Assembly (NCBI GenBank): GCA_003222085.1
Contig: QHUK01000019.1
Coordinates: forward strand, 1 to 64,000
Source: Gemmatimonadota bacterium
GTDB taxonomy: Bacteria > Gemmatimonadota > Gemmatimonadetes > Gemmatimonadales > GWC2-71-9
Length of the DNA: 64,000 nt
Direction: 5' to 3'
The stretch's first letter is position 1, and every line of letters starts with the position of its first letter. A model generated the notes under the pieces. That model was not told where the DNA came from and ran no database searches. It saw only the letters and a list, made by a program, of their open reading frames with translations. This document shows positions 2,327 to 9,603 of the stretch, one piece after another. The translations under genes were made by a program, and so were the position numbers.

Positions 2327-3397
2327 CTATTTCGTGGCGAGCGCCTCTCTGACAATCGCGTCGACCAGCGGCGCCGAATCGAACCGCACCGGATCGGTCG
2401 CCGGCAGCCCGGTCGCTTCCGCCGCACGCGCGACCGCTTCCCGCGCCTGGGCCTCGCTCATGTCGAACGTGTTCAGGCAGATCCCGATCACTTTCGTCGG
2501 GTGGACCGGTGCGGCGGCGCGCTCGTAGATCTCCACGAGGTCCGGGAGCGTGGGGATCTTCACCCATGGCTCGCGGCCGTGGTAATCGCCGATGTAGTCG
2601 CGCGTCGCCTGATGGCACAGGATCAGCGCGTCGGGACACGAGCCGTGCAACAGCCCGAGCGTGACCCCGGAATACCCCGGATGGATCAGACTCCCCTGCC
2701 CTTCGACGAGGATGATGTCGGCGTCTTTCGCCGCCTCGAGCACCAGCCACTCCGACGCCCCGGCGATGAAGTCGGCCACCACCGCGTCCACCGCGATCCC
2801 CCACCCTTCGATGAAGATGCCCGTCTGCCCGGTGGCGACGAACCGCGTGCGGTGGCCGCGTTTGATCAGGGCGTTCCGCAGCTCGACTTGCGCCGTCATC
2901 TTCCCGACGTTGCAGTCGGATCCCACGGTGTGCACCACGTAGGCGTCGACCTCGGCCGCGAGCCCGTCCGCGACCGGGAGGTTCGCTGGGGGCTTGCGGG
3001 CGTCGAAGATGCGGACGCCGCGCTCCCGGGCGAGCCGCCCCAGCTCGGGGTCGTCCCCGATGAACGTGTGCAGGCCGCTCCAGATCTCGAGCCCATGCTC
3101 GATGGCGCGGCGCAGCCAGCCGCGCCACTCGGCCGGCAGCCGGCCGCCCATCGGCGCGATGCCGATCAACACCGCGGTGGCACCCAGGCCGAGGCCTCGC
3201 TCGAAATCCCCCACCACCGGGATCGTGCCGCCGAAGCCCAGCACGTCCTGGACGGTTTTCCCGGCGTGGCCGCGATCGAACACCCCGACGACCCGCTCGG
3301 GCATGTAGCGGATGCAGCAGTTGGCCGTCTTCGATGTCATCGGCTCGAACTGTCCGTCGGCGATGATGAGGAACCGGTGGTTGCTCCGCGCGACCAT
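2327..3397 (-). CDS. DUF1611 family P-loop protein (DgcN-like)
   Basis: A 356-aa protein of the DUF1611 family: a Rossmann-like N-terminal domain followed by a P-loop domain with VGSDCNVGKMT near residues 150-160. Other signatures are the acidic EGQGSLIHPGYSG stretch and PHTK-like HPTKVIG near the end. One characterised DUF1611 member, DgcN, N-acetylates D-glutamate and works with an enolase-superfamily epimerase, DgcA. No epimerase gene is adjacent here, so the substrate is open. The start was placed at the ATG at 3397, whose A is shared with the TGA of the upstream transporter (TGATG). Longer upstream reading is only a shadow of that gene. It is the last gene of the uvrA-led series. Confidence 0.85.
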   Translation of the reverse strand: MVARSNHRFLIIADGQFEPMTSKTANCCIRYMPERVVGVFDRGHAGKTVQDVLGFGGTIPVVGDFERGLGLGATAVLIGIAPMGGRLPAEWRGWLRRAIEHGLEIWSGLHTFIGDDPELGRLARERGVRIFDARKPPANLPVADGLAAEVDAYVVHTVGSDCNVGKMTAQVELRNALIKRGHRTRFVATGQTGIFIEGWGIAVDAVVADFIAGASEWLVLEAAKDADIILVEGQGSLIHPGYSGVTLGLLHGSCPDALILCHQATRDYIGDYHGREPWVKIPTLPDLVEIYERAAAPVHPTKVIGICLNTFDMSEAQAREAVARAAEATGLPATDPVRFDSAPLVDAIVREALATK

Positions 3398-4494
3398 CAG
3401 ACGGGGATCTGCTCCCTCGGCGCGCGGAACTCCGACGTCGTACGAAGCACCGCGGGCTCGAAGTGTTCGGAGTCGCCGTAGATCTCCCCTTGCACGATAT
3501 GTCGCACGACCACCATGGTCACGGCGAGCACCGGCACCGCGACCACGAGGCCCACCACGCCGATCAGGGTCCCCATGGTCAACACGCTGGCGATCGTGAG
3601 GACCGGCGGCAGCGACACCTGGCGCTGCATGATACGGGGCACCACGACGTTCGCCTCGAGCACGTGCACCGCGACGCCGAGCGCGATCACCGCGAGCACG
3701 CGCAGCCAATCGCCCGTGCCCACGACAAACAGCGCGGGCAAGAGGGTCGACACGAGCGTTCCGAAGAACGGGACGACGGCGACGAGACCGGTGAAGATCC
3801 CGAACGCCAGCCAGTAGGGCACGCCGAGGGCCCACAGGCCGAGCGCGGTCAGGATGGCGAGCACCATCATGGCGAGCAGCTGGCCCACCACCCAGGCGCG
3901 CAGCGTGGCTCCCAGGTCATCGAGGATCCGCGCGGCAACGGGGCGGTGCTTCGGCGAAACGAGCGACCGGATCCCGTCGCGATACAGGCGCGGCTGGCGC
4001 GCGAGATAGAGGGCCATCACCACGACGCTCGCCCCCTCGACGAACAGCTTGCCCCCGGCGGTGACGTAGGGGAGGATCGACCCGCGCAGGAAGGCCGCGG
4101 CGTCGTCGATCAAGCGCACCACGATCCCGGAGGAGGGGTCCGCGAGCACGGTGCTCCGCAGGACGGGGTACTCCCGCGCCCAGCTCGCGAGCACGTTCTG
4201 GATATTCGTGAGCGTCTGGGGCAATCCCGACACCAGGGCCTGTGTCTGGTCGATGACGGGCGGGACGAGCAGGGCGCCGATGCCCACCACCGCCGCTAGC
4301 GTCGCCACCACCGCGGCGGTGAGCCCCATCCAGCGCACCAGGCGAAAGCGCCGTTCGAGCACGTCGGTAATGGCCGAGAGGTACACGGCGCACAGCACGG
4401 CGATGAAGACGAGGAGCAGCACCTCGACCACCCGGATGACGAACCAGATGGCCAGGGCGGCAACGAAGAGCGCCACGAACGTGGCGCCCGACAA
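3397..4494 (-). CDS. AI-2E family transporter (PerM/YdiK type)
   Basis: A 365-aa polytopic inner-membrane protein of the AI-2E transporter family (PF01594). Paired hydrophobic helices near the start (FVALFVAALAIWFVIRVVEVLLLVFIAVL) are followed by an amphipathic region with many DQTQ/LTN residues. A second block of helices contains the conserved GLWALGVPYWLAFGIFTGLVAVVPFFGT stretch and a PRIM-type PRIMQRQVSLPP near residue 285. Members export diverse substrates; the name is historical. It starts 26 nt after the PspA-like gene and its stop overlaps the DUF1611 start by 1 nt, suggesting coupling. Confidence 0.88.
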   Translation of the reverse strand: MSGATFVALFVAALAIWFVIRVVEVLLLVFIAVLCAVYLSAITDVLERRFRLVRWMGLTAAVVATLAAVVGIGALLVPPVIDQTQALVSGLPQTLTNIQNVLASWAREYPVLRSTVLADPSSGIVVRLIDDAAAFLRGSILPYVTAGGKLFVEGASVVVMALYLARQPRLYRDGIRSLVSPKHRPVAARILDDLGATLRAWVVGQLLAMMVLAILTALGLWALGVPYWLAFGIFTGLVAVVPFFGTLVSTLLPALFVVGTGDWLRVLAVIALGVAVHVLEANVVVPRIMQRQVSLPPVLTIASVLTMGTLIGVVGLVVAVPVLAVTMVVVRHIVQGEIYGDSEHFEPAVLRTTSEFRAPREQIPV

Positions 4495-4520: not shown

Positions 4521-5288
4521 TCAGCGCTGGTGCTCGGGGCCGTCGTCATCCTCGACCAGCTCCGCCTCCGCCGCTCCCTTGCCCAGCTGCTTCGACTGCT
4601 CGGGAGATCCGGCCGGGAGCAGGCCCATCTTGCGCTTGAGCTCGATCAGCTGCTGATCGGCGTCCGCCCGCACTTCCAGGCTCTGGAACTGCTTCACGAG
4701 CGTATCGCCCGAGAGGTCTTCGTGCACCTCGGCCGCGGCGATCAGCTTGCGCTCCTCGTGCTCGATCTGCTCGGTCATGCGCTCGAACGTCTCGAACACG
4801 CTCTTGTCGCCGATCGACGACATCGTTTCCTGAATGCGCTTGTGCGCCTCGGCGCGTTTCTGCCGCGCGATCAGGATGTTCTTCTTGCGCTTCGCTTCCT
4901 CGATCCGGTCGTTCAGCTGGCGGAGGGAGAGCTTGAGCTTCTCGGTCTCCTCGCGGTGCTTGACCCACGTCTCGTGCAGCTGCACGGCGCCCTGCGCGTG
5001 CTCGTTATGGCGCAGCAGCGCCTGCTTCGCGAGGTCGTCCCGCCCCTCCTGCACCGCCAGCACCGCCCGGCGCTCCCAGTCCTCGGCGCTCTTCTTCTCC
5101 GTGTCCACCTGCGCCGAGAGGCGCTTCTCGTCCGCGATGGCCGCCGCCACCTGCTGCTTTGCCTTCGCCAGCTGACTGCGCATGTCGACGATCAGCTGGT
5201 TCAACATCTTTTCCGGGTCCTCGGCACGGTTGATCAGGTCGTTGATGTTCGACCGGATCAGCGTCGAGAGACGGTCAAAGATTCCCAT
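4521..5288 (-). CDS. pspA: PspA/IM30 (Vipp1) family membrane-stress protein
   Basis: A 255-aa, mostly coiled-coil protein. The N-terminal amphipathic helix and PspA signature (GIFDRLSTLIRSNINDLINRAEDPEKML) are clear, and a long heptad-rich rod runs to about residue 190. PspA/IM30 proteins polymerise on the inner face of the cytoplasmic membrane and stabilise it under proton-leak or envelope stress. The C-terminus is acidic (AELVEDDDGPEHQR). Four small TM-plus-coiled-coil genes lie directly upstream on the same strand and a membrane transporter directly downstream, which points to a membrane-maintenance operon. No PspF-type regulator is present. Confidence 0.93.
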   Translation of the reverse strand: MGIFDRLSTLIRSNINDLINRAEDPEKMLNQLIVDMRSQLAKAKQQVAAAIADEKRLSAQVDTEKKSAEDWERRAVLAVQEGRDDLAKQALLRHNEHAQGAVQLHETWVKHREETEKLKLSLRQLNDRIEEAKRKKNILIARQKRAEAHKRIQETMSSIGDKSVFETFERMTEQIEHEERKLIAAAEVHEDLSGDTLVKQFQSLEVRADADQQLIELKRKMGLLPAGSPEQSKQLGKGAAEAELVEDDDGPEHQR

Positions 5289-5315
5289 GAGAGCCCTCGG
5301 TGTACTGGCGGGGCG

Positions 5316-5663
5316 TCACTGTCCCGCGCCCAACTTACGCTCCCGCCGCTCGGCGAGCATGCGCTCGGCGAAATCTAAGCGCTCGGCGAGCTCGGAGACC
5401 TGCCCCTGGAGGTGCGACACCTGCGCCTCCAGCTCCGCGACCCGCTGGGGATCGTCGCCCCCGGCGCCCCCGGCGCCTCCGCGGCGCTGCACCCGCGTCC
5501 TGATGCGCTCGGCGATCGCCTCCCCCACCGGTGTCCGCAAGATGCCGCGCAGCGCGACCGCCACCACCAGGATCACGACCACGGCGGCGATGATGGGCAC
5601 CACCTCGTTGAACACGAGGTTCGGGTCCAACCCCGGGGGCATCGGGGGCATGGGGGTCTGCAT
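5316..5663 (-). CDS. Small membrane/coiled-coil protein, paralogue 4 of a tandem set
   Basis: A 115-aa protein with one N-terminal TM helix (VVPIIAAVVVILVVAVALRG), a basic linker and a short coiled coil ending in ERLDFAERMLAERRERK. The last motif is shared with three upstream neighbours. The layout (TM anchor, then a short helix ending in a leucine-zipper-like motif) recalls PspB, but no direct homology is claimed. The ATG at 5663 shares its A with the preceding stop (TGATG) and was preferred to the GTG one codon upstream. It is 27 nt from the pspA start. Confidence 0.8.
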   Translation of the reverse strand: MQTPMPPMPPGLDPNLVFNEVVPIIAAVVVILVVAVALRGILRTPVGEAIAERIRTRVQRRGGAGGAGGDDPQRVAELEAQVSHLQGQVSELAERLDFAERMLAERRERKLGAGQ

Positions 5664-5947
5664 CACGTAGACGCCGTACGCCTCTCGCCAGGGCCCAGTT
5701 TCCCCGCCTCTCCGTCCCGTCCCTTGGCCAGCAACCGCTCCGTAAAATCTACTCGCTCCGCGAGTTCCGCCACTTCGCGCCGCAGCTCTTCCACCGCCGC
5801 GAGCACGTCGCCCTGCCCTGTTACCCCACCTGCTTGGCTCTGCGCCTTGAGCTTTGCCAGGTAGGTCCTGCTGAGGATGAACGCGATCACGCTCCCGAAA
5901 AACCCCCCGAGCGCCACGATGGGTATCAAGACTTCCAGCTCACCCAT
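5663..5947 (-). CDS. Small membrane/coiled-coil protein, paralogue 3
   Basis: A 94-aa protein: N-terminal TM helix (LIPIVALGGFFGSVIAFILS), then charged helix LAAVEELRREVAELAERVDFTERLLAKGRDGE with the family motif. The start was set at the ATG at 5947 because a much longer upstream frame merely reads through the neighbouring gene. Its stop overlaps the next start by 1 nt. Function is inferred only from position in the pspA gene row. Confidence 0.78.
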   Translation of the reverse strand: MGELEVLIPIVALGGFFGSVIAFILSRTYLAKLKAQSQAGGVTGQGDVLAAVEELRREVAELAERVDFTERLLAKGRDGEAGKLGPGERRTAST

Positions 5948-5966
5948 CAGGTCCTCCCGTCCCCGC

Positions 5967-6254
5967 TCATTGGCTCGGTCCGATCCGCTGGCCCTCGCGG
6001 TTCTTCGCGAGCAGCCGCTCGGCGAAGTCCATGCGCTCGGCGAGCTCCGCCAGCTCGTGCCGCACGGCCTCGAGCTCCTGGTTGAGGGCGTCCTTGTGCT
6101 CGGCCAGCTCGGCTCGCAGCTCGCCGCCATCGGTCGACGGGCTCTTGCCGCGAATCCGGTCGGCCACCGCGCGGCCGATCGGCGAGAACGCGATCGCGAT
6201 GCACGCGCCGCCTCCGAAAATGAGGATGATCGCGAGGACGCCTTCGATATCCAT
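5967..6254 (-). CDS. Small membrane/coiled-coil protein, paralogue 2
   Basis: A 95-aa protein with a glycine-containing TM helix (VLAIILIFGGGACIAIAFS), a PIGRAVADRIRGK segment shared in spirit with paralogues 1 and 4 (PVGKALAEWIRG, PVGEAIAERIRT), and a coiled coil ending in ERMDFAERLLAKNRE. It starts 3 nt after paralogue 1 ends. Confidence 0.8.
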   Translation of the reverse strand: MDIEGVLAIILIFGGGACIAIAFSPIGRAVADRIRGKSPSTDGGELRAELAEHKDALNQELEAVRHELAELAERMDFAERLLAKNREGQRIGPSQ

Positions 6255-6257
6255 GGT

Positions 6258-6566
6258 CTAGTGCGGCCGCGCGATCCGCTGCGCGTCGCGGTCCTTCGCG
6301 AGCAGGCGCTCGGTGAAATCGAGCCGCTCCTCGGCTTCCGCCAGCCGACGCTTGAGCTCGTCGACCTCGGCGAGCAGCTGTGTCGTGTCGCTTCCGAGCA
6401 CGACGCCATGCTTCGCGGCCTTCATGGCCATCCATTGCTCGTCCGTCTTCGACCACCCGCGGATCCACTCCGCGAGCGCCTTCCCCACAGGCCCCGTGAG
6501 GACGACCGTGGTACCGATGACGAGCGCGAGACCGATCATAGCGACTGCCGGGACCCACATTCCCAT
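6258..6566 (-). CDS. Small membrane/coiled-coil protein, paralogue 1
   Basis: A 102-aa protein. The TM helix covers residues 5-25 (VPAVAMIGLALVIGTTVVLT), followed by GPVGKALAEWIRGW, then a coiled coil ending in ERLDFTERLLAKDRD. It is the first of four tandem paralogues and begins 34 nt after the uvrA stop codon. A purine-rich AAGAGGAGGAAA lies upstream of its ATG and is a good ribosome binding site. This suggests the set may also be translated from its own signal. Confidence 0.8.
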   Translation of the reverse strand: MGMWVPAVAMIGLALVIGTTVVLTGPVGKALAEWIRGWSKTDEQWMAMKAAKHGVVLGSDTTQLLAEVDELKRRLAEAEERLDFTERLLAKDRDAQRIARPH

Positions 6567-6600: not shown

Positions 6601-9441
<2,841 letters not shown>

Positions 9442-9449
9442 AGACTCGT

Positions 9450-9479
9450 AGGCTAGAAGGCAGACGGGTTCCCGGTCAA
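9450..9479 (-). promoter_or_regulatory. Putative promoter of uvrA
   Basis: The minus strand has TTGACC, an 18-nt spacer and TAGCCT, followed 8 nt later by the uvrA ATG. Transcription would start within a few bases of the start codon, giving a leaderless or near-leaderless mRNA. Hexamer match only. Confidence 0.45.
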
Positions 9480-9490
9480 CTCTCCGAGCA

Positions 9491-9603
9491 GGTCGGGGGA
9501 GGTTGGGGAGGTTGGGGGAGGTTGGGGAGGCTGCTCCGCAGAGGTGCCAACCTCCTCTAACCTCCCACAACGTCCCGAGCCTTCCCCAACCTCCTTGCAA
9601 CCT
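9491..9603. repeat. Two-armed gggaggttg repeat C1 in the uvrA-cutA gap
   Basis: The left arm (9491-9530) has four tandem ggaggttggg-type units. The right arm (9546-9603) carries the reverse-complement units ccaacctcc, less regular. The arms flank a 15-nt spacer and could form an imperfect hairpin. It fills most of the 200-nt divergent gap between uvrA and cutA, leaving the two promoters at its edges. Confidence 0.8.

Follow-up and report, generated by a model that had tools for sequence, protein, structure and literature searches.

Tandem transmembrane–coiled-coil genes upstream of pspA as a possible multiplied membrane arm of the PspA system in Gemmatimonadota

The first 64,000 nucleotides of contig QHUK01000019.1 from a Gemmatimonadota bacterium (assembly GCA_003222085.1), a stretch referred to here as a whole as the window, carry four tandem genes for small transmembrane (TM)–coiled-coil proteins, paralogues A to D, directly upstream of pspA. 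Similar arrays precede pspA throughout most of the window's family. We give about an even chance to the proposal that the four genes represent, in multiplied form, the membrane arm of the PspA (bacterial ESCRT-III) system, in which the array proteins would most likely serve as membrane anchors of PspA or as its stress sensors. This reading, in which one PspA is served by several anchors or sensors, is favored because of the tie of the array to the psp locus in the window's family, the presence of a single gene of the same architecture in two other families, and one fusion of such a TM head to CesT. In well-studied bacteria, membrane anchoring of PspA and stress sensing are performed by one or two proteins.

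A preliminary description of the sequence had reported four tandem TM–coiled-coil paralogues upstream of pspA, and these were confirmed at positions 5316 to 6566; the range originally given, 4521 to 6566, takes in pspA itself. From the uvrA-like gene through A, B, C, and D to pspA, the intergenic gaps are 34, 3, 19, −4, and 27 nt (D and C overlap by 4 nt), and because of this tight spacing the array and pspA would likely form one transcript. The start of C is the ATG at 5947, which is preceded by GGGAGGA. The PF04012 protein encoded at the locus identifies a PspA/IM30 system, and it was the single PspA match in the 3.54-Mb draft genome (70 contigs).

All four proteins have the build first ascribed to them, with one TM helix and a tail ending in ER[LMV]DF[AT]ER[LM]LA. 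Each contains a single hydrophobic stretch (Kyte-Doolittle, 2.4 to 3.0), and a six-frame translation of the window contains the motif exactly four times, once per paralogue, with no occurrence in 200 shuffles of all 763 window open reading frames (ORFs). The short basic juxtamembrane segment that had also been described is intact in A, B, and D and degenerate in C. Lys and Arg residues are absent just before the TM helix and number 3 to 6 in the next 20 residues, a skew that, by the positive-inside rule, predicts an N-out/C-in topology. Single-chain AlphaFold2 models of A (helices 4-24, 26-52, and 57-98; pLDDT 88.5) and D (helices 15-44, 46-63, and 73-114; pLDDT 83.8) share a common build of TM helix, break, juxtamembrane helix, loop, and C-terminal helix. 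This last helix comprises 42 residues, mostly at pLDDT 93 to 98, and the pTM of the single-chain helical models was 0.38 to 0.43.

Paralogues B to D are 36 to 39% identical to A in a multiple alignment, and a profile of the four recovered each of them from the whole genome (E values of 2e-29 to 8e-41; 8.2e-41 for A), so that A to D are judged mutually homologous from their sequences. Scans of A to D against Pfam and NCBIfam gave no match above cut-off, and a search of PDB sequences using the family profile returned mostly generic TM–coiled-coil ends of K+/Na+ channels (best E value, 0.0026). The NG86 dN/dS ratios of A to D against six close relatives were 0.15 to 0.63, the top value stemming from a paralogous pairing in locus L075, versus 0.02 to 0.13 for pspA. 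This range points to purifying selection on the array genes, weaker than that on pspA, and rules out that they are non-coding or spurious ORFs of GC-rich DNA.

Within the window's own family (coded f1; f2 to f7 and f9 denote other families in the phylum sample), 34 pspA loci were compared, comprising the window, 13 loci, and 20 further loci; for genomes G106 and G131 no pspA locus could be used. Arrays of 1 to 11 copies were present at 32 of the 34 loci. All 149 copies lie upstream of pspA on the pspA strand, and on contigs that reach as far as the uvrA-like gene they are flanked by that gene and pspA. Contig ends truncate several arrays (e.g., L200, L209, and L214), and copy numbers are therefore lower bounds. 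One array-less locus (L218, genome G142) is on a contig that ends inside pspA and was counted as 0 but is uninformative; the other, in G104, has CesT at that place and 13 family matches elsewhere. Gaps between adjoining array domains have a median of 22 bp, and 118 of 119 are at most 120 bp. When three copies from f3 are included, a simple hydropathy rule assigned one TM helix to 124 of the 152 copies, two to 17, and none to 11; 138 copies retain the tail motif in relaxed form.

The tree of these 152 copies (97 columns) is poorly resolved, with 76 of 149 branches open. The nearest relative was found in another genome for 141 copies, locus labels change 126 times on the tree versus 124 to 135 times in shuffles, and positions 1 (D) and 2 (C) of the CesT-less loci each form a clade (10 rows and an SH-aLRT of 99 for C). 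The copies group by position, not by genome, and the nearest relatives in other genomes, the label changes within the shuffled range, and the position clades together indicate that they are old and distinct, in an order that has been maintained. Recent tandem duplication or gene conversion is rejected on the same tree. The genes of the window locus are listed in Table 1.

Table 1. Genes at the pspA locus of the window
Feature	Position	Strand	Description
Paralogue A	6258-6566	minus	102 aa; TM–coiled coil; tail EERLDFTERLLAK; directly follows the uvrA-like gene
Paralogue B	5967-6254	minus	95 aa; tail ERMDFAERLLAK; commonest orthogroup across arrays
Paralogue C	5663-5947	minus	94 aa; tail ERVDFTERLLAK; juxtamembrane basic motif degenerate
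Paralogue D	5316-5666	minus	116 aa; proline-rich N terminus; tail ERLDFAERMLAE; adjoins pspA
pspA	4521-5288	minus	255 aa; PF04012, E 8.3e-45, 153.5 bits
AI-2E family transporter	3397-4494	minus	PF01594, E 2.7e-54; conserved downstream neighbor, adjoins pspA in many relatives
Presumably DUF1611-like protein	2327-3460	minus	start uncertain; conserved downstream neighbor in f1, where relatives were placed by phmmer with the window protein
UvrA-like excinuclease subunit (label presumed from the sequence)	6601-9600	minus	start uncertain (9441 or 9600); conserved upstream neighbor

Forty pspA loci outside f1 were also read. The order of uvrA-like gene, pspA, and often the AI-2E gene is kept in them, and CesT_Tir_1 (PF22550) lies directly before pspA in most, giving a uvrA-CesT-pspA order without the array. 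Exactly one TM–coiled-coil gene was found at 2/2 loci of f6 and 7/8 of f7 (9/10 together), 3 to 37 bp before CesT-pspA; these small TM genes were separated by eye from other hydrophobic ORF ends (e.g., L182 and L250). In the f6 gene of G052, the TM helix is followed by GPIAKAYADRI, which is the juxtamembrane motif of the array, and the tail reads DEQSFMVQLL; this gene matched the array profile with an E value of 4.7e-6. The single-copy genes of f7 share the C-terminal end EEQRFMTRLLEG. At the eighth f7 locus (L197:4668-5273, minus strand, G120), a 201-aa protein encoded next to pspA joins a TM head, GPIARAIAASIE, and CesT_Tir_1 (residues 76 to 198; E value, 9.5e-21) in frame. Among the matches listed from 346 genomes searched, 243 of which had a CesT match, the G120 protein was the sole one covering the whole query.

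The one f3 locus carries three array members together with CesT. In f1, CesT is present at 18 loci and absent from 15, with one uninformative locus at a contig edge, and every CesT-less locus (15/15) has at least three array copies. No CesT match was obtained at the window locus or anywhere in the window genome, which does not have the CesT/Tir-PspA dyad, and none in five other listed genomes of the window's genus. Likewise, PspC (PF04024) had no match in the window genome; it was matched in 8 of 61 f1 genomes and was absent from the other 53.

A membrane arm that stands alone in f6 and f7, has its head fused once to CesT, and is multiplied in f1 is the most economical account of these loci. 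The ancestral form would have been one small protein encoded directly before CesT-pspA, in which an outward N terminus and one TM helix led into a basic juxtamembrane helix and then a coiled coil in the cytoplasm; it may have tethered the complex of CesT and PspA to the inner membrane by binding CesT or PspA. In f1, an old duplication would have produced the 1 to 11 non-identical genes, with their order kept, and in one subclade that includes the window CesT would have been lost, with the proline-rich D in place next to pspA. Without PspC, the array proteins probably do both jobs, sensing and anchoring. Sensing could proceed through the differing TM heads and linkers, whereas the common C-terminal helix may bind PspA to anchor or nucleate it, and hetero-oligomeric coiled coils are likely. 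As heads and linkers vary and the tail is fixed, several inputs to one PspA are suggested. This proposal builds on established features, namely, gene order, conservation, orthogroups, selection, the common predicted fold, the absence of CesT and PspC, and one TM-CesT fusion. The module suggested at the outset, in which several anchors or sensors would serve one PspA, is thus partly supported overall, through the f1 locus tie, the f6/f7 gene, the fusion, and the single PspA of the genome.

Other results weigh against a dedicated partner of PspA. The linkage of the motif family to pspA, which had been put forward as a check, holds for the psp-locus orthologues of f1 but not for the family as a whole, most homologues of which are not linked to pspA. 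Of 150 genomes sampled across the phylum, 106 were matched by the four-gene profile (E values up to 0.01), and PspA was found in 134. All 36 f1 genomes had profile matches, 3 to 17 each and about 335 in total; as only 149 copies lie at psp, more than half of the f1 copies are elsewhere, the totals of 335 and 149 coming from different models and thresholds. Of 96 matches in 36 non-f1 genomes, one adjoins pspA and 95 are elsewhere (these genomes were chosen mostly for having four-gene-profile matches, and 35/36 is not a frequency). Four of the 11 family copies in the window genome are at psp, the other seven being matched with E values of 5.3e-8 or better. A general statement that the family is linked to pspA everywhere is wrong, given the 4/11 in its own genome and the 1/96 outside f1. 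A recurrent other site, found in several families, lies between bshC (PF10079) and murJ (PF03023).

Further points on the same side come from the other families and from E. coli. At the loci of f2, f4, and f5, PspA is present, mostly with CesT, and a TM–coiled-coil gene of the array type was found in 0/9, 0/5, and 0/15 (0/29 together). The f7 single-copy genes are weakly similar to array members (11.0 bits for L196, with 8 of 1,000 tail shuffles as good), and the fusion of a TM head to CesT was seen once, in a single draft genome. Genome G125, a single contig that is 90% complete, is without PspA yet has four family matches. In addition, PMC3068692 describes E. coli PspB as not binding PspA directly but reaching it through PspC; as the window genome is without PspC, the array proteins would work like PspB at most in part.

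Across the phylum sample, the four-gene profile was matched in 102/134 PspA-positive versus 4/16 PspA-less genomes (Fisher P = 8e-5); with a broader profile, 3/16 PspA-less genomes matched (G131, G038, and G125). Family and PspA were lost together in genera g51, g23, and g49, with g65 as a counterexample. Such co-loss may reflect general genome reduction, because the PspA-less genomes are mostly small, and this too tempers the link to PspA. Five f9 genomes, a more distant group (G001, G003, G005, G007, and G009), are without PspA and, by the broader profile, without the family. One family match came from a record titled Terrabacteria ANGP1 (L129), possibly a misbinned Gemmatimonadota contig.

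These results bear on an alternative that we regard as doubtful, in which the proteins are lineage-specific membrane-anchored coiled-coil scaffolds for envelope complexes (cell wall, division) without special contact to PspA, the psp array being one of several sites. The conserved other sites, chiefly that between bshC and murJ, the tails on other heads, the 4/11 own copies at psp, and the members in PspA-less G125 would be expected of such scaffolds. Against them stand the recurrence of this architecture at the pre-pspA site in four families (f1, f3, f6, and f7), the close placement of the f6/f7 gene before CesT-pspA, the TM head fused to CesT, and the genome-wide co-occurrence with PspA.

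Copies between bshC and murJ were seen at L043:5046-5327 (own genome, contig C12), L157, L161, L163, L169 to L171, L173, and L178. bshC acts in bacillithiol synthesis and murJ encodes the lipid II flippase, and the TM–coiled-coil gene between them is possibly cell wall related. Also in the window's own genome (contig C19, L042:4887-5324), a TM2-domain protein (PF05154; E value, 3.3e-14) carries a ERLDFAERLLAQ tail, with a thioredoxin gene and an alanine dehydrogenase/PNT gene as neighbors. At L041:5509-5847 and L046:5884-6276, the family tail follows a longer N-terminal part, seemingly with more than one hydrophobic stretch, which, like the TM2 case, is a sign that the tail has been combined with different membrane heads. 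A bacterial PH-domain protein (PF10882; L040:5116-5577) is encoded between two very similar dispersed family copies of the window's own genome.

A bolder extension of the membrane-arm proposal, which we consider unlikely, is that the ERxDFxERLLA helix can be transferred between membrane proteins and docks each of them to one PspA; a genome would encode about ten such proteins, with a single TM helix, a TM2 domain, or several TM helices. If so, proteins at psp, at bshC-murJ, and at other sites would each bring the same PspA pool to their own place or stress. The result would be a bacterial ESCRT-III hub with multiple inputs, substituting for PspB and PspC and, within the subclade of the window, for CesT as well.

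A further alternative is that the array genes are true but divergent PspB, descended from the proteobacterial type with function kept. The PspB-like layout noted in the preliminary description was borne out, as the N-terminal TM helix and cytoplasmic helical tail of PspB were both recovered by hydropathy, charge, and AlphaFold2. Its statement that the motif differs from PspB stood insofar as all scores were far below cut-off, but PspB proved to be the most frequent NCBIfam match. Indeed, TIGR02976 was the commonest NCBIfam match among 65 members (39/65; next model, 10/65), the best PspB-model match over the 150 genomes was an array member (28.3 bits), and matches fell from 20/30 for forward sequences to 0/30 when only the cytoplasmic tail was reversed. 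The likeness to PspB thus seems to depend on residue order. None of the 150 genomes reached the curated TIGR02976 cut-off of 51.7 bits, which rules out plain filing of these genes as PspB. In Pfam, PspB was matched by 6/65 members (best E value, 8.4e-4), behind DUF5798 with 13/65. The reverse search was weak, with E. coli PspB scoring 12.5 bits and 13 of 1,000 tail shuffles as good. The hhalign probability for PspB was 50 to 73% versus 29% for a tail-reversed profile, the PspB profile having two rows because plasmid PspB is almost all enterobacterial, with one Aeromonas sequence below 60% identity. E. coli PspB had no relative in the PDB at E values up to 1. The nearest relatives outside f1 mostly gave no PspB match (1/10 and 0/5 matched), the genome has no PspC partner, and the genes lie upstream, not downstream, of pspA. 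Overall, we consider descent from PspB with its function kept improbable.

A spacer flanked by two conserved genes might also accumulate tandem duplicates under selective neutrality, with the individual copies having no separate roles; this would fit the variation from 0 to 11 copies between genomes but is very improbable, being already disfavored by the tree, in which copies cluster by position, and by the dN/dS ratios, and at odds with the widely retained tail motif.

If the array is the membrane arm of PspA, it bears on how PspA/ESCRT-III is placed on the membranes of bacteria other than E. coli and B. subtilis. The lineage with arrays consists of soil and groundwater bacteria, and its relatives offer a natural series, from loci that have no membrane gene (f2, f4, and f5) to those with one (f6 and f7), with one fused to CesT, and with 1 to 11 in the presence or absence of CesT. 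This series allows one to ask which part recruits PspA and why there would be several recruiters per cell. Together, tail motif and position also provide an annotation handle for a PspA-linked membrane family that is unnamed in Pfam and NCBIfam.

Literature search listings for PspA, PspB, CesT, or phage shock in Gemmatimonadetes, Gemmatimonadota, or Gemmatimonas contained no paper on such arrays. The stem "Gemmatimon" is absent from the main texts of PMC11237479 (Ravi et al. 2024) and PMC9239133 (which we take to be Popp et al. 2022), whose supplements and web app may list single loci. Known systems resemble the array in part. CesT-PspA dyads are described in PMC11237479, as are duplications of PspB and fusions of divergent PspB to PspC. 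The CesT/Tir-PspA dyad reported there resembles relatives of the window locus in the same phylum, where CesT_Tir_1 (PF22550) directly precedes pspA; unlike the dyad, these loci have a TM–coiled-coil gene ahead in f6 and f7 and arrays in f1 and f3, and CesT is gone in the window's subclade. According to PMC8581546, YdjG and YdjH of B. subtilis anchor PspA to the membrane, which makes pspA-ydjGHI a functional analogue in that PspA-anchoring membrane proteins are encoded with PspA; gene order and domains differ from those of the array, and Pfam and NCBIfam scans of array members indicated no relation. PspB (TIGR02976, PF06667) of the proteobacterial psp operon is, like the array proteins, small, with an N-terminal TM helix and a cytoplasmic helical or coiled-coil tail, and is encoded at the psp locus. 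However, it is usually present in one copy downstream of pspA, whereas the array comprises 1 to 11 copies upstream, has a conserved ERxDFxERLLA end, is without PspC in the window genome, and scores far below the cut-off. More than one PspB-type gene per operon is also found in the duplicated pspB of AOL22920.1 (as given in PMC11237479), but that case is PspB proper in a pspABC-type operon, whereas the array consists of as many as 11 paralogues that are highly divergent and separated long ago.

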